32,675 nucleotides of DNA from a virus, in the IMG/VR virus record IMGVR_UViG_3300042502_000646, positions 1 to 32,675 of that record. One strand, 5' to 3'. The notes under the pieces were generated by a model, which was not told the DNA's origin, did no database searches, and was given only the letters and a program-made list of their open reading frames with translations. Shown here one piece after another: positions 1-6,566 of the stretch. Position 1 is the first letter of the stretch. Each line of letters begins with the position of its first letter. The position numbers were made by a program, and so were the translations under genes.

Positions 1-38
1 AAAATAATATTTTTTATGATGTAATGTTGTAGTTGTGC
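1..38 (-). repeat. Partial attC-like site, right arm only
   Basis: The core GTTGTGC at 32-38 is the R'' partner expected for the cassette carrying the 45-356 ORF, because its other end (TCGCACAAC, 397-405) is the inverse. The remainder of the site lies left of the window. Confidence 0.5.
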
Positions 39-44
39 GAGATG

Positions 45-356
45 CTACGAAACCTTTATATTTGACAACAGATAAAGTAAAGAATCAACAGTCGGTTCAC
101 ATATTAATTCCCAAGTGTCGGAATGAGTTGAGTATTTTCTACTGACAACTTTAAAATTAAGATGTGTAGAATTTCTAATCGTTTTATATTGTTTATCTTT
201 AAACCACGGTTTAATTCTAAAAGTAGCCTTCATAAAATCCTCTACACAAGTTTCTATTTCATCGCCAATTAAAGGCACGTAATTTAATTCTTTACATTGA
301 TTTAAAACGAACATTTTTTCGTTTTTTCTATCGCATCTAAACCATACTTTTGACAT
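45..356 (-). CDS. Hypothetical cassette protein, 103 aa
   Basis: Unrecognised small soluble protein, basic in the middle, with no signal peptide or membrane segment. It begins with MSKVWFRC and contains a Cys/Lys-rich N-terminus. The ATG lies about 40 bp inside the cassette start (core at 399-405) and the stop sits a few bases from the R'' core at 32-38. The ORF thus fills its cassette, the usual integron geometry. The upstream sequence is A/T-rich with no Shine-Dalgarno site, normal for Bacteroidota. No function can be inferred from sequence alone. Confidence 0.7.
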   Translation of the reverse strand: MSKVWFRCDRKNEKMFVLNQCKELNYVPLIGDEIETCVEDFMKATFRIKPWFKDKQYKTIRNSTHLNFKVVSRKYSTHSDTWELICEPTVDSLLYLLSNIKVS

Positions 357-398
357 AATTTTTAATTTTTAATTGTTAATATTTAAAAGCACCATCGC

Positions 399-528
399 AC
401 AACAGCGTGTTTGCAAAAAGGCGAATTTAGGTTCAATTTAATGGTCTGTGTGTGTTTTTAAGTTCAGTAATAAACTGAAAGTTTAGGTGTACTTTTTCGC
501 CTCTTCGCAAACACACGACGCGTTATAA
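399..528 (-). repeat. attC-like site A
   Basis: The outer cores are GCACAAC (399-405) and GTTATAA (522-528). Inside them the arm CGTGTTTGC plus a GGCGAA segment pairs with TTCGCC and GCAAACACACG near 497-516, leaving unpaired extra bases. This imperfect palindrome is typical of a folded attC. It separates the ORF at 45-356 from the ORF at 535-891. Length is about 130 bp. Confidence 0.7.
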
Positions 529-534
529 GTAACT

Positions 535-891
535 TTACTCAACATTGCGGTTAAAAATTCCGTTATCAACAATATCTAAATCAGAATAACAAAGATAATG
601 CCTTATAATTTCTTTTTGACCTATAACACGTATATCAATATGCTCAAATTTATCTACTCCTAAAACTTTTTTCATACCGGCTTTTACATCAACTTTTGAA
701 GAAGCTAAAAAACCATTATTGTAATATTTAATAAATTTCAGTTTATGTAATTTGCAATATTCTTTTATTTTTACTTTTAACATTTCTTTTTTGTTTATTA
801 TTTCTAATTCTTTTTCAACTTGTTTTTCTATTGCAGGATTACCGTTTTTTTCTAACCAATCTGTAATCATATTATTTTCTGAAAAATCCAT
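535..891 (-). CDS. Hypothetical cassette protein, 118 aa
   Basis: Lys/Glu-rich, probably mostly helical in its first half (MITDWLEKNG and a following EKQVEKELE stretch), a small-protein style I associate with Bacteroidota mobile elements. The ATG is 13 bp from the cassette's R' core (904-910) and the stop is 7 bp from the R'' core at 522-528, so the ORF almost fills its cassette. No catalytic motif, signal peptide or membrane span is visible. Function unknown. Confidence 0.75.
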   Translation of the reverse strand: MDFSENNMITDWLEKNGNPAIEKQVEKELEIINKKEMLKVKIKEYCKLHKLKFIKYYNNGFLASSKVDVKAGMKKVLGVDKFEHIDIRVIGQKEIIRHYLCYSDLDIVDNGIFNRNVE

Positions 892-903
892 AATAAAAGC
901 TAC

Positions 904-1037
904 TTATAACATCGGTTTTGTTCAATGCCTTCTCTTGGGTATTATCGGAAGTGTTTTTGCTATTCATAAGTTTGTTTTTTATTTGTGAACTTCAGTTTTG
1001 AATTACGGCACTGAAATAAAGCCGAGAACCGTTATGC
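904..1037 (-). repeat. attC-like site B
   Basis: The cores are TTATAAC (904-910) and GTTATGC (1031-1037). The inner arm TCGGTTTTGTTCAATGCC (912-929) pairs imperfectly with GGCACTGAAATAAAGCCGA (1007-1025). Both cores resemble Vibrio-type cassette cores. The site is nearly identical to site D over most of its length although the outer cores differ. The TAA stop of the 1032-1406 gene lies inside the right core. Confidence 0.75.
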
Positions 1038-1406
1038 AACAGCTAACTCGACACCGTTTAAAAAGAAAATCAAATTTTGTAATTCGTGAACGTATTTGCG
1101 TTTACCAAACTCCCAACTATCTGAAATTCTAATGCAATTATCGTCTAAATCATAAGCTACACTTCTATCTAAAATAAACCAACGATAAGAAGTATCATCA
1201 TCTCGGACAAATCCCATTTTTTCAAGCCATTTTTCGTTTAATTCAATTGGTTTTAAAGATGTAAAAGGTATTTCTCCAGTAGTAGAGTTAAAAATATCTT
1301 GATTTTTACTGCAAATTGATTCAACTAAAATAGGTTTCTCATCATACAAATCAGCAAAAACTATATTGCCAATTCTTAAATCTTGTGGTAAAATAGCCGA
1401 TTGCAT
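1032..1406 (-). CDS. LRIGN-type hypothetical protein (cassette gene)
   Basis: Recognisable by the N-terminal DLRIGNIVF motif, a central LKPIELNEKWLEKMGF segment and the C-terminal YVHELQNLIFFLNGVEL. I know this order of motifs from a widespread Bacteroidota phage and mobile-element family of unknown function. The length of 124 aa is full for that family. I chose the ATG at 1406 because it lies inside the cassette's own core (TTATGC), so it travels with the cassette. An in-frame ATG at 1460, inside attC site C, would add 18 residues. The stop codon TAA is part of the R'' core of site B. Soluble, no membrane segment. Confidence 0.8.
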   Translation of the reverse strand: MQSAILPQDLRIGNIVFADLYDEKPILVESICSKNQDIFNSTTGEIPFTSLKPIELNEKWLEKMGFVRDDDTSYRWFILDRSVAYDLDDNCIRISDSWEFGKRKYVHELQNLIFFLNGVELAVA

Positions 1407-1538
1407 AACAGCGGTTTTGTCGCATTGTGGCACTTTGGTATTTTTTGTAAGTTCTGTCATAATTTTAAAATTTGGTTATTATTTGTTAAGTTTGGTCTTA
1501 AATCGCCACAACGACGACAAAGCCACAAAACGTTAGCA
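1403..1538 (-). repeat. attC-like site C
   Basis: The cores are GCATAAC (1403-1409) and GTTAGCA (1532-1538). The arm TTTTGTCGCATTGTGGC (1416-1432) pairs imperfectly with GCCACAACGACGACAAA (1505-1521). The site contains an ATG at 1458-1460 that reads out in frame into the following cassette gene. Confidence 0.7.
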
Positions 1539-1544
1539 GTAATA

Positions 1545-1838
1545 CTAACCAATCTTTACTAAATCAAGCTTTGTTTCTCCGTATTGTCTATTAATTAATA
1601 AATGAAGTAATCGATATTCAGGAACTTCGTAATATTCTCCATTAACTAATATTTTATCACAAGATAACATTTGTATCATTGTTTTTTTATCTAACCTAAA
1701 ATAAGCCGATAATACTATTTTTGTTTCAAGTTTTTCTTGAATTTCTCTGTAGAAAGTCAAATCTAAAGTACTACTGCTAACATCGGTTTTATTCAATGCC
1801 TTTGCTTGGGTATTATCGGATGTGTTTTCGCTATTCAT
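1545..1838 (-). CDS. Hypothetical cassette protein with attC-encoded N-terminus, 97 aa
   Basis: The first ~20 residues (MNSENTSDNTQAKALNKTDV) are encoded by attC site D, and the cassette itself begins at about residue 20. No other ATG occurs until residue 54, so translation probably starts inside the neighbouring attC site unless a rare non-ATG start is used. The cassette-encoded part has an LDKKTMIQMLSCDKI helix and the C-terminal YRLLHLLINRQYGETKLDL. No known domain was recognised. The stop is 7 bp from the R'' core at 1532-1538. Confidence 0.65.
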   Translation of the reverse strand: MNSENTSDNTQAKALNKTDVSSSTLDLTFYREIQEKLETKIVLSAYFRLDKKTMIQMLSCDKILVNGEYYEVPEYRLLHLLINRQYGETKLDLVKIG

Positions 1839-1908
1839 AAGTTTAGTTTTAATTTGTTAATTTCAGTTTTTAATAACGGCACTGAAATAAAGCCGAGAAC
1901 CGTTAGTG
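1775..1908 (-). repeat. attC-like site D
   Basis: The cores are TGCTAAC (1775-1781) and GTTAGTG (1902-1908). The inner arms are almost the same as in site B: TCGGTTTTATTCAATGCC near 1783-1800 against GGCACTGAAATAAAGCCGA near 1878-1896. The ATG of the 1545-1838 ORF lies inside it. Confidence 0.75.
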
Positions 1909-1913
1909 GCAAC

Positions 1914-1943
1914 CGTAGGACACCCGACACCGAGCATCCTACG
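1914..1943. terminator. Possible hairpin after the 1956-2174 gene
   Basis: CGTAGGA (1914-1920) and TCCTACG (1937-1943) form a perfect 7-bp stem with a 16-nt loop between the gene stop and site D. It lacks a T-run on the minus strand, so a role as intrinsic terminator is doubtful. Confidence 0.3.
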
Positions 1944-1955
1944 AACCACAATTAG

Positions 1956-2174
1956 TTACTGTTTGAAAGAAAACTTTTCACCAAGTAACTCAATTCTTTG
2001 TCCAAGTATTTGTAAATACTCGTTCATTAATCTTGACTGTTTGTAAAGCAAATCTTTGTTTTGCCTGTCAAGGTCAACAAATTTTTGCGTTCTCATAAAG
2101 TCGTTTAAGGCGTTTGTTTTTGTCGCCAACTCTTGTGCTTCAATTAGAAGTCTGTCGAAAAATGTATTTTCCAT
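1956..2174 (-). CDS. Hypothetical cassette protein, helical, 72 aa
   Basis: MENTFFDRLLIEAQEL begins a protein that looks helical throughout, with regularly spaced Leu/Ile and charged residues. It may form a coiled coil of about 65 residues. No signal peptide or transmembrane segment. The ATG lies about 60 bp inside the cassette start (2233-2239) and the stop about 48 bp before the R'' core at 1902-1908, which leaves room for a hairpin. Function unknown. Confidence 0.7.
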   Translation of the reverse strand: MENTFFDRLLIEAQELATKTNALNDFMRTQKFVDLDRQNKDLLYKQSRLMNEYLQILGQRIELLGEKFSFKQ

Positions 2175-2232
2175 TTTATTTAATTGTGGGTTTTATAAAG
2201 GTCGCCCAAACCTGTATCGTGAAAACGGCAGC

Positions 2233-2358
2233 CACTAACACGGGTTTGGCAAAATGGCTGTTCAGTAATTCTATTTAACATTCGTTTTTAATTTTAAAGT
2301 TTAGTAATTCTATTTAGTTTCAGGTTCAGCCACTTCGCCAAGCCCGATAACGTTACCC
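2233..2358 (-). repeat. attC-like site E
   Basis: The cores are CACTAAC (2233-2239) and GTTACCC (2352-2358). The clearest of the set: GGGTTTGGCAAAATGGCTG (2242-2260) pairs with CAGCCACTTCGCCAAGCCC (2327-2345) with few mismatches. The right core overlaps the TAA stop of the HTH gene 2353-2559. Its inverse, GGGTAAC, was not found to the right up to the divergent promoters, so this junction has no visible matching cassette start. Confidence 0.75.
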
Positions 2359-2559
2359 AAATATCAAATGGATTTCTACTCCGTTAGCATTTCCTTTTAA
2401 TTCTTTTTTACCTAAAATCTTTGCGTAATTATACGCTGGTAATAATGGATTTTTTGACTTTACCTGTGCGTTAATTGTTTGCGGTGTTTCTCCAACAAGT
2501 TTTGCGAATTGATTTTTATTTTTCGCATTTTCTGAAATTAGTTTCTCTAATATGTTCAT
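2353..2559 (-). CDS. Small helix-turn-helix protein
   Basis: 68 aa, with a helix-turn-helix of XRE type at about residues 14-34 (NQFAKLVGETPQTINAQVKS). The C-terminal ELKGNANGVEIHLIF resembles the ends of small phage regulators in Bacteroidota. A longer in-frame ORF runs to 2667, but the ATG at 2557-2559 sits just past the stop of the upstream gene and gives a clean HTH protein, so I prefer it. Last gene of the minus-strand operon. Its stop codon lies in the core of attC-like site E. Likely DNA-binding regulator; target unknown. Confidence 0.75.
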   Translation of the reverse strand: MNILEKLISENAKNKNQFAKLVGETPQTINAQVKSKNPLLPAYNYAKILGKKELKGNANGVEIHLIFG

Positions 2560-2560
2560 T

Positions 2561-2773
2561 TTATTTCTTTTTAAATGTTTCTTTGTAATATTGTTCATCT
2601 TCATCATTAACACAAGTAAGTTTGTGTTCATCATATCCTTTACGATTACCCCATTCAACTGCATCAATTATCTGTTGCTTTTCCATTTCTTTGGCGTGGT
2701 AAAAATCAACTGGTGTTAATTTACCATTAGAGTTGTACTGATTCTCTAAAAATCCTACTGCTGTTTGTTTCAT
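2561..2773 (-). CDS. Hypothetical early phage protein, 70 aa
   Basis: Contains the stretch KEMEKQQIIDAVEWG, which I recognise from many small flavobacterial phage and prophage proteins of unknown function. It is acidic at the C-terminus (VNDEDEQYY). Its ATG overlaps the TGA of the mini zinc-ribbon gene (ATGA, 2770-2773) and its stop is one base from the next ATG, so it is translated as part of a coupled operon. No catalytic motif seen. Confidence 0.75.
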   Translation of the reverse strand: MKQTAVGFLENQYNSNGKLTPVDFYHAKEMEKQQIIDAVEWGNRKGYDEHKLTCVNDEDEQYYKETFKKK

Positions 2774-2883
2774 ATCTTATTTAATTTAGTGTGACAATCT
2801 TTGCATCTATAATACTTCTTTTTATAATTGTAAGTCCATCGGTGCTTACAAAATAGTTGTTTAAAAAATTCAATTATTTTCAT
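2770..2883 (-). CDS. 37-aa mini zinc-ribbon protein
   Basis: Begins MKIIEFFKQLFCKHRWTYNY and continues KKKYYRCKDCHTKLNKI. C12/H14 and C27/C30 (with H31) give a likely single zinc-binding site. It overlaps the upstream gene stop by 14 bases and the next gene start by an ATGA. A close paralogue lies at 3643-3744 on the other strand (shared KQLFCKHR, YNYK, KYYRCK, CH), so the short ORF is protein-coding. Role unknown; perhaps a nucleic-acid or protein-binding module. Confidence 0.75.
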   Translation of the reverse strand: MKIIEFFKQLFCKHRWTYNYKKKYYRCKDCHTKLNKI

Positions 2884-3061
2884 TGTTATTTTCTTTTAAT
2901 TCATTTGACCATTCTATTATATATTGTTCAATCGTAATAGGATGCCAAGTTAACGCCACAAGGTGCGATTTAAAAGCATCAAATAAATCTTCTAAAGATA
3001 CATCTGAATGTTTAAACTCTGTGATGTATAACTGGTCTTTTGTTTCTGTTGTGATTTTCAT
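2870..3061 (-). CDS. Hypothetical early phage protein, 63 aa
   Basis: First gene of the leftward operon, 63 aa, with SDVSLEDLFDAFKSHLVALTWH and an Asn/Glu-rich tail (ELKENNNENN). The pattern LEDLFDAFKSHLVALTWHPITIEQYI resembles short phage proteins of unknown function in Flavobacterium. The start follows the promoter at 3082-3089 by about 20 bp with an AAACTAATTAT leader. No membrane segment. Confidence 0.75.
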   Translation of the reverse strand: MKITTETKDQLYITEFKHSDVSLEDLFDAFKSHLVALTWHPITIEQYIIEWSNELKENNNENN

Positions 3062-3649: not shown

Positions 3650-3744
3650 GATTTTTAAAACAGTTATTTTGTAAGCATCGATTTGCCTATAACTACAAAA
3701 GAAAATATTATAGATGTAAAAATTGTCACCTTAAAATAGAATAA
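3643..3744 (+). CDS. 33-aa mini zinc-ribbon protein, paralogue of 2770-2883
   Basis: MLRFLKQLFCKHRFAYNYKR then KYYRCKNCHLKIE. The Cys/His spacing (C10, H12, C25, C28, H29) and most intervening residues match the leftward gene at 2770-2883, so the two are duplicates on opposite sides of the divergent promoters. Conservation at this length supports a real gene. Probably binds one zinc; role unknown. Confidence 0.7.
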   Translation: MLRFLKQLFCKHRFAYNYKRKYYRCKNCHLKIE

Positions 3745-5556: not shown

Positions 5557-5707
5557 AAGCATAGTATTAGTAGGTAAGCGAATTCCAACAGCCTACGAAA
5601 TTCAAAAAGAAACTACTTTAAAAGCTAAAGAAGTTTTAGAGAAAACAAAAGAAATGGATCATATAAAAAATAAACCTGTACGTTATGACATTAAGAGAAA
5701 AGTTTAA
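5534..5707 (+). CDS. Hypothetical basic protein, 57 aa
   Basis: MSKLNKRKSIVLVGKRIPTAYEI then a Lys/Glu-rich helix (KAKEVLEKTKEMDHI). Its start overlaps the XRE gene by 23 bases and its end overlaps the next gene by 23 bases. Strongly basic. No domain recognised; may be a nucleic-acid-associated small protein. Confidence 0.6.
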   Translation: MSKLNKRKSIVLVGKRIPTAYEIQKETTLKAKEVLEKTKEMDHIKNKPVRYDIKRKV

Positions 5708-5879
5708 ACCAAAAGTAAGTATTAATACATATGGAGAGGCTGGAAGATATGCAAAAGAATGCGAACAAATAGCAGACGATTACGCTATTGAAATGTTAGA
5801 AAGTTATCACAATAGCTTATTTAATATTCCATTAAAAGAAGGAGAGGCAAAAGAAATATTAAAACATTTAAAGAAATGA
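5685..5879 (+). CDS. Hypothetical early phage protein, 64 aa
   Basis: MTLREKFKPKVSINTYGEAG leads a helix (KECEQIADDYAIEMLESY) and ends KEILKHLKK. I recognise this as a common short flavobacterial phage protein pattern but know no function. It overlaps both neighbours. Confidence 0.7.
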   Translation: MTLREKFKPKVSINTYGEAGRYAKECEQIADDYAIEMLESYHNSLFNIPLKEGEAKEILKHLKK

Positions 5880-6004
5880 AAACACCCGAACTACGCTTTG
5901 AACAAATAAAAAGAATTATGCGTAAACTCGAAAAAAGAGGTCAGAATAACGAAAAAATTAATAGTGAATATAAAAAACTTTTGAAAGATGAATTTAACAG
6001 ATAA
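5876..6004 (+). CDS. Hypothetical basic protein, 42 aa
   Basis: MKTPELRFEQIKRIMRKLEK and a Lys-rich helix to the end. It shares four bases with the previous stop (ATGA) and 17 bases with the next gene. Coding status rests on operon geometry and a clean start. Function unknown. Confidence 0.5.
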   Translation: MKTPELRFEQIKRIMRKLEKRGQNNEKINSEYKKLLKDEFNR

Positions 6005-6566
6005 AATAACAATAACAAACGAAGATAATATGTTATTAATGGCACGTTATCCTGATAACTATTTTGACTTGGCTATTGTAGATCCTCCTTATGGAATAGG
6101 TATAGATGGGCAAAAGAAAAGTATTAATAAAAATCCTAAACATAATAGAAAAGAACACGCTCAAAAAAATTGGGATAACTCAATACCTAATAAAGAATAT
6201 TTTGATGAATTAAAAAGAGTTAGTAAAAATCAAATTATTTGGGGTGCAAACTATTTTACTGAATATTTAAAACCTACAAAAGCTTGGATATTTTGGTATA
6301 AAGGTCAAAGAGATTTAACAATGAGTGATGGAGAAATGGCATGGACTTCTTTTGATACAGTTACAAGGCAATTTGAATTAAATAGAGCTTCTTTAATTTC
6401 TCAAAATACATTTCATCCAACAGAGAAGCCATATAAACTTTACAAATGGATTTTAGACAAATACGCAAAAGAAAACGATAAAAGAGTAATTAACTTCTAC
6501 TATAAAAGAGGCGTGAATTCTGAACGCATAAATACACTATATAAAAAAATATTAAAAAATAGATGA
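5988..6566 (+). CDS. Adenine/N4-cytosine DNA methyltransferase, C-terminally truncated
   Basis: 192 aa. Motif IV DPPYG at 32-36 and HPTEKP at 143-148 are typical of beta-class N6-adenine or N4-cytosine methyltransferases of phage type. In this class the AdoMet-binding motif (an ILDxxxGSGS-like loop) should follow about 15-20 residues after HPTEKP. Here the frame instead reads KENDKRVINFYYKRGVN and ends, and neither other forward frame restores the motif. Without it, cofactor binding is probably lost, so the gene may be decayed or its C-terminus replaced. Overlaps the next gene start by 4 bases. Confidence 0.75.
   Translation: MNLTDKITITNEDNMLLMARYPDNYFDLAIVDPPYGIGIDGQKKSINKNPKHNRKEHAQKNWDNSIPNKEYFDELKRVSKNQIIWGANYFTEYLKPTKAWIFWYKGQRDLTMSDGEMAWTSFDTVTRQFELNRASLISQNTFHPTEKPYKLYKWILDKYAKENDKRVINFYYKRGVNSERINTLYKKILKNR

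Follow-up and report, generated by a model that had tools for sequence, protein, structure and literature searches.

We analyzed a 32,675-base stretch of DNA that constitutes a single virus record (IMGVR_UViG_3300042502_000646, G000; hereafter the window), in which positions 32-2352 are occupied by an array of five gene cassettes resembling those of integrons. The terminase, portal, protease, primase, holin and endolysin-like genes of the window, together with DNA matches, group it with the virulent Baltic Flavobacterium phages Muminvirus and Lillamyvirus described by Nilsson et al. 2020 (PMC7077304). The gene order in the Baltic phages is an exonuclease gene and gp002 on the plus strand, a small anchor gene on the minus strand (gp003), a long run of minus-strand genes and the plus-strand early genes. 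Base 1 of the window corresponds to a point just to the right of the anchor gene and its end to the gp002 region, and about 0.6 kb of the phage genome seems to be absent from it. A first-pass annotation had described five open reading frames (ORFs), five paired cores and five palindromes of 126-136 bp, all of which were found (Table 1), and the array does lie inside the phage genome, as that annotation had considered. Its real start, however, is the attI-like G32 and not base 1, and while the cassettes are indeed co-directional with the adjoining leftward phage genes, as a shared-strand reading had implied, the ORFs lie on the minus strand and point to the attI-like site. Neither the attI-like site nor the reversed polarity nor the recombinase linked to arrays in relatives featured in that annotation.

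The first-pass annotation had also named the comparison of related genomes as the way to check, or else to refute, an integron-like array. This comparison revealed that single cassettes were lost, inserted, replaced or relocated cleanly at G|TT, which supports that reading. One 439-bp cassette differs in position between lillamy9-1 and lillamy9-3: it occupies 5638-6076 in one phage, whereas the other has it in the attI slot, at 2038-2476. The relocated cassette and the 3,600 bp between both positions are identical in the two phages, and all four junctions lie at G|TTAT. Recombination between repeats does not account for this relocation, because the attI and the cassette share only GTTATAA. The same 439-bp cassette is present in sniff9-1 but not in sniff9-2, a 506-bp cassette is present in mumin6-1 but not in mumin6-3, and tooticki6-1 differs from mumin6-3 in the first cassette at attI, the rest of the array being nearly identical. 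Compared to lillamy9-1, sniff9-1 has an additional 1,181 bp that correspond to exactly two cassettes, one of which encodes a DNA methyltransferase, and lacks one 476-bp cassette. The travelling attC was in every such event the one at the start-codon side of the ORF, and the mobile unit thus consists of an ORF plus this attC. Exact excision, insertion and shuffling of single cassettes, as known from integrons, are thereby indicated by comparative genomics.

The insertion slot itself is conserved. The sequence ...TTTTTTATCATGTAATATTGTA|GTT beside the anchor gene is common to 17 of the 17 cultured phages examined and also occurs in several IMG/VR contigs, the window differing from it by two substitutions. 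The sequence after G|TT varies between the phages, different cassettes beginning exactly there. A constant left flank, a variable cassette and one relocation into the slot are what is expected of an attI with cassette entry at G|TT. The recombinase-linked loci described below have a conserved TAAC|TACTATATGTAAA... about 55 bp before the start codon, with the variable cassette stopping exactly at TAAC, and a constant attI side next to a variable cassette side was seen upstream of about 30 recombinase genes. Searching IMG/VR with the short attI pattern gave mostly chance matches, and the single match of the attI pattern in GTDB genomes, in Clostridium citroniae, was judged to be due to chance. 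Arrays or attI-like sites were also observed in larger virus contigs (L216 of 99.6 kb, L180, L188 and L203), with nine cassettes detected in L180.

By exact count, the two ends of each window cassette match over 9-10 nt. Among 62 distinct cassettes of the clade, the ends agree at positions 1-10 and never at position 11 (A at the 5' end in 62/62, usually with C opposite). Positions 12-15 agree again in 95, 95, 89 and 79% of the 62, respectively, and agreement beyond is at chance level; it should be noted here that the cassette search imposed agreement at positions 1-8 only. This rule of about 15 nt with a fixed mismatch is repeated in 85 independent cassettes of recombinase-linked arrays. The two arms of a single site inside the array agree over GTTA only. 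As to the core letters, all 62 clade cassettes have GTT, 61 have A at position 4 and 37 have T at position 5, compared to GTTRRRY for the classical core. When the window was shuffled 20 times, the detector recovered no linked cassettes, and 113 unrelated IMG/VR loci (1.04 Mb), a background set taken from the chance matches to the short attI pattern, yielded one linked array. In the class 1 integron control it recovered four cassettes with own-core matches of 12, 10, 7 and 9 nt, and matching ends as such are therefore a normal integron property. The TJE1 array was missed, which indicates that detection is geared to long cores and arms like those seen here.

An alignment of 32 sites on the bottom strand is characterized by TAACG, unpaired bases on that arm only, and then stems of 4 and 6 pairs and more, with compensatory changes in 13 of the 19 consensus pairs. 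Folded as circles, 61 of 62 clade cassettes and 84 of 85 recombinase-linked cassettes are more stable on the bottom strand, as compared to 12 of 67 control windows. This preference arises because each fixed A.C opposition of the top strand corresponds to a T.G wobble on the other strand. Covariation and strand bias together support an assignment of these structures as attC-type hairpins. The imperfect palindrome R''L''L'R' with a favored bottom strand thus corresponds to that of integrons, with the asymmetry placed on the cut arm: unpaired bases occur on the arm with the cut core, whereas the aadA1 site, used for reference, has its extra base on the arm that is not cut. This proposed mirror arrangement is well supported by the sequences. 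An Rfam scan of the window gave no matches.

The cassette ORFs point toward attI in the window, in the Baltic phages and in the recombinase-linked loci, while the class 1 control reads as expected. This is the opposite of the integron arrangement, in which ORFs lead away from attI and the attC is at the 3' end of the ORF. Of 43 cassettes, 20 have their first in-frame ATG within their own attC. Across the attC arm, the ORF frame is open in 47% of the cases versus 7% for other frames (p = 4e-7; 39% versus 19%, p = 0.003, in the recombinase-linked set). These two results suggest that leaders are often translated from the attC. The leftward phage genes at 2353-3061 are upstream of the cassettes and have the same direction; judging solely from this orientation, they are the probable source of cassette transcription. 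A search for Bacteroidota promoter motifs gave no more matches than chance and identified no promoter.

The window encodes no IntI, as the first-pass annotation had stated, and no other tyrosine recombinase, and Pfam and PHROG scans of its proteins showed no recombinase of known type among the families shown. Two further array-bearing contigs encode a tyrosine recombinase of 266-267 amino acids (aa) right at the attI end of the array, the two enzymes being 64% identical. An IMG/VR scan with this pair yielded 33 relatives. A linked array adjoins the recombinase gene in 23 of the 33, on the upstream side except in one fragment, whereas the 113 unrelated loci yielded a single such array (Fisher p = 5e-18). 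Of the ten contigs without one, seven begin within about 0.7 kb upstream of the gene. The catalytic residues R, K, H, R, H and Y are invariant in this family, which is nearest to XerA and the NCBIfam model NF040815. The phage recombinase resembles IntI4 in two separate stretches, but the IntI patch is missing and the array-linked enzyme scores 139 bits with TIGR02249 (cut-off 265). In a small tree the phage recombinases form their own clade (100/99) apart from IntI1, the deeper placement being unsure with such long branches. A tyrosine recombinase with the IntI-specific patch was found neither in the window nor in 11 complete relatives, and the array-linked enzyme is without the insertion.

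Based on the present data, we consider it very probable that the array is an integron-like gene-capture platform carried by a phage, with cassettes exchanged at G|TT and a XerA-type recombinase acting in trans as the most likely enzyme. A cassette of one or a few small ORFs and one attC hairpin, with its limits at G|TT, would be excised as a circle, the joined ends of which would rebuild a lower stem of about 15 bp (10 bp, one A.C or T.G position, 4 bp). The bottom strand would be the likely folded substrate, and the cut would fall within G|TTA. The circle would reinsert either into the attI-like site next to the left anchor gene or into a different site, and the captured genes would be read by the leftward operon of the phage, toward attI. 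The enzyme would most likely be the XerA-type tyrosine recombinase of about 267 aa that other flavobacterial phages encode about 55 bp behind attI. The window and the cultured virulent phages, which do not have this gene, would use the enzyme in trans from a co-infecting phage, a prophage or a host element. On balance, we also favor the broader view that phages and plasmids of Bacteroidota have a distinct integron lineage, in which a dedicated tyrosine recombinase other than IntI is used, the polarity of the cassettes is reversed and attC sites provide the captured gene with a start codon and an N-terminal leader. Virulent phages would share an exchangeable pool of methyltransferase and counter-defence genes through it, with the enzyme supplied in trans where the gene is absent.

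Several points weigh against this interpretation. PF00589 is absent from the window and from 19 other related records, 11 of which are complete cultured genomes. The folding z-scores are modest for three of the five individual window sites, and the clade attI resembles the recombinase-linked attI only over TAAC|TAC.ATAT.TA. Moreover, cassette recombination is deduced from genome comparisons, in which each event may have run in either direction. The absence of a recombinase from the phage would suit a plain cluster of attC sites lacking integron-integrases (CALIN), that is, captured classical cassettes that are mobile only when a host supplies a classical IntI integrase. According to Qi 2023 (PMC9892861), IntI1 in E. 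coli recombines five of six tested virulent-phage attC sites, including attC2 of Polaribacter phage P12002L. The P12002L array resembles the present ones in its core rule and in the polarity of its ORFs, and integrons have been reported from Bacteroidota (PMC8618304). Nevertheless, we regard this explanation as unlikely, since the phages keep their own conserved attI, cassettes differ between near-identical genomes, 23 of 33 phage loci combine an array of the same architecture with an adjoining dedicated recombinase other than IntI, and both the ORF polarity and the unpaired arm are opposite to class 1.

That host XerC/XerD act on the hairpins, as on CTX-type phage sites, is very unlikely in view of the dedicated recombinase with its own attI that accompanies arrays in other phages, even though the linked recombinase is itself XerA/Xer-like and, for filamentous phages, single-stranded sites in folded form are established substrates of Xer proteins; a dif-like motif was not noticed, although no systematic search was made for one. 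Slightly less credible still is homologous recombination between similar palindromes combined with ordinary phage mosaicism. Neighboring sites can share 90% identity, and an exchange between two similar sites could delete one cassette. However, the relocated cassette sits in an attI with which it shares so little sequence, the left and right attC sites of the deletions differ without any hybrid site, the junction being at G|TTA, and the fixed mismatch and circle-form pairing are left unexplained. Finally, hairpins between co-directional ORFs might be transcription terminators or another operon structure with ends that match by coincidence, but to this we assign hardly any probability given ends matched to 15 nt with a fixed mismatch, exact cassette moves, and ORFs that often begin within the hairpin and read through. 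An integron-like platform with a XerA-type enzyme in trans therefore remains the reading we prefer. A CALIN is defined by at least two attC sites with no integrase nearby, and the 32.7-kb window has five sites and no PF00589. Because neither IntI nor the classical polarity was found when tested for, the window copy is filed as CALIN-like, an array plus attI without the enzyme, and as an integron variant rather than a classical IntI integron.

Classical integrons (class 1, Vibrio sedentary chromosomal integrons) share with the phage system the G|TT junction, an attI, attC hairpins with a better-folding bottom strand, complementary ends within a cassette, gain, loss or movement of one unit at a time, and mostly small ORFs of unknown function. 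They differ in that the phage-linked recombinase is of XerA type without the IntI patch and its gene is co-directional with the cassettes, and in that the phage ORFs run toward attI with the attC upstream of its ORF and apparently often translated. Furthermore, own-end pairing in the phages extends over about 15 nt with a fixed A.C position, and their core, GTTA followed mostly by T, seems to deviate from a strict GTTRRRY. The CALINs of virulent phages TJE1, P12002L and PH101 in Qi et al. 2023 (PMC9892861) likewise are integrase-less attC clusters with methyltransferase cargo, and P12002L fits the same architecture as the window array. The main text of that study mentions no natural cassette movement, no dedicated recombinase for virulent phages and no Flavobacterium phages. 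Muminvirus and Lillamyvirus (PMC7077304) belong to the same phage group as the window and have the attI anchor and near-identical attC sites; their description leaves the array unrecognized and notes variable methyltransferases without a mechanism. The xerD-tet(X) and other XerD-associated resistance clusters of Bacteroidota (e.g. PMC11194056) have a related recombinase (41-49% identity) beside mobile genes, but are described as gene neighborhoods and not as integron-like cassettes. A literature search that covered neither preprints nor most subscription journals found no report that such phages possess an attI or a dedicated recombinase or that their cassettes move in nature. Phage CALINs are thus already known (Qi 2023), while the remainder appears to be undescribed.

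The present findings indicate that cassettes are shuffled among virulent phages in nature, from which integrons are known only as scattered attC clusters, and they point to an integrase-like enzyme that would be missed by searches requiring IntI features. They also suggest a site-specific route by which phages could swap anti-restriction genes. According to PMC7077304, the plating of some LMO9 phages is three to four orders lower on LMO6, a last-host effect having been tested with lillamy9-1 and morran9-1, and the poorly plating phages are without a methyltransferase that others have. The methyltransferase cassette that is exactly inserted in sniff9-1 and absent from the poor plater lillamy9-1 is a candidate determinant of plating on LMO6. 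The system can be tested directly with phage isolates that already exist.

Table 1. Features of the cassette array and its flank in the window
Feature	Position	Strand	Size	Core or junction	Remarks
attI-like site	1..41			AAAATAATATTTTTTATGATGTAATGTTGTA|GTT	insertion point G32|T33
Cassette 1	33..522			GTTGTGCGA	basis: matching inverted ends, palindrome, next G|TT
Cassette 1 ORF	45..356	-	103 aa		
attC-like site 1	397..528		132 bp		included in covariation alignment A5
Cassette 2	523..1031			GTTATAAGTA	
Cassette 2 ORF	535..891	-	118 aa		
attC-like site 2	904..1037		134 bp		90% identity with site 4
Cassette 3	1032..1532			GTTATGCAA	
Cassette 3 ORF	1032..1460	-	142 aa		ATG within attC 3, which would encode leader MTELTKNTKVPQCDKTAV
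attC-like site 3	1403..1538		136 bp		1405-1535 91% identical to Lillamyvirus phage sites
Cassette 4	1533..1902			GTTAGCAGTA	
Cassette 4 ORF	1545..1838	-	97 aa as called		start within attC 4, leader ...ALNKTDVSS
attC-like site 4	1775..1908		134 bp		
Cassette 5	1903..2352			GTTAGTGGC	
Cassette 5 ORF	1956..2174	-	72 aa		crAss001_48-related protein (PF21825, 4e-16)
attC-like site 5	2233..2358		126 bp		array end; 2231-2355 95% identical to mumin/tooticki site
Leftward phage genes	2353..3061	-			helix-turn-helix (HTH)-like ORF 2353-2559, small ORFs 2561-2773 and 2870-3061

Among 38 scanned proteins from cassettes and neighboring array positions, ten matched DNA methyltransferases (8 N6/N4, 2 C5) and one was crAss001_48-related; HTH families were also found. 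The arrays of L175 and L180 contain homologues of the cassette 3 ORF. Positions 2165-2219, where the cassette 5 ORF starts, contain a 55-bp match (87%) to the unrelated Flavobacterium elemo phages (host BAL314), which suggests a common gene pool. Outside the array, an 88-nt inverted duplication (78%) places one copy on each side of the divergent region (2782-2869 and 3651-3738), the plus copy encoding a small cysteine-containing peptide (KHRFAYNYKRKYYRCKNCHLKIE).

The same recombinase family also adjoins the resistance genes erm(F) and tet(X3) on plasmids. A Flagellimonas plasmid (L262, NZ_CP092416.1, 1886-3974) has a similar architecture, with erm(F) carried by a cassette whose ends match and which stops at one of two copies of CCGCATAAC, 60-90 bp before the gene for a XerA-type recombinase (42% identical to the phage enzyme). 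In an Acinetobacter plasmid (L263, NZ_CP104735.1, 2967-4988), the short tyrosine recombinase encoded beside tet(X3) shares 49% identity with the phage enzyme over 206 aa, and the spread of tet(X) may have started from such cassettes. A Chryseobacterium plasmid (L261, NZ_CP041688.1, 5105-7028) encodes a member of this recombinase family, with attC-like sites located downstream of it. Phages Leef_1 (L258), Ingeline_1 (L259) and Freya_10 (L260) have annotated phage integrase genes (34-38% identity) with a CTAAC motif shortly upstream, and these genes may not encode lysogeny integrases; in Leef_1, cassette-like repeats are also present upstream of the gene.

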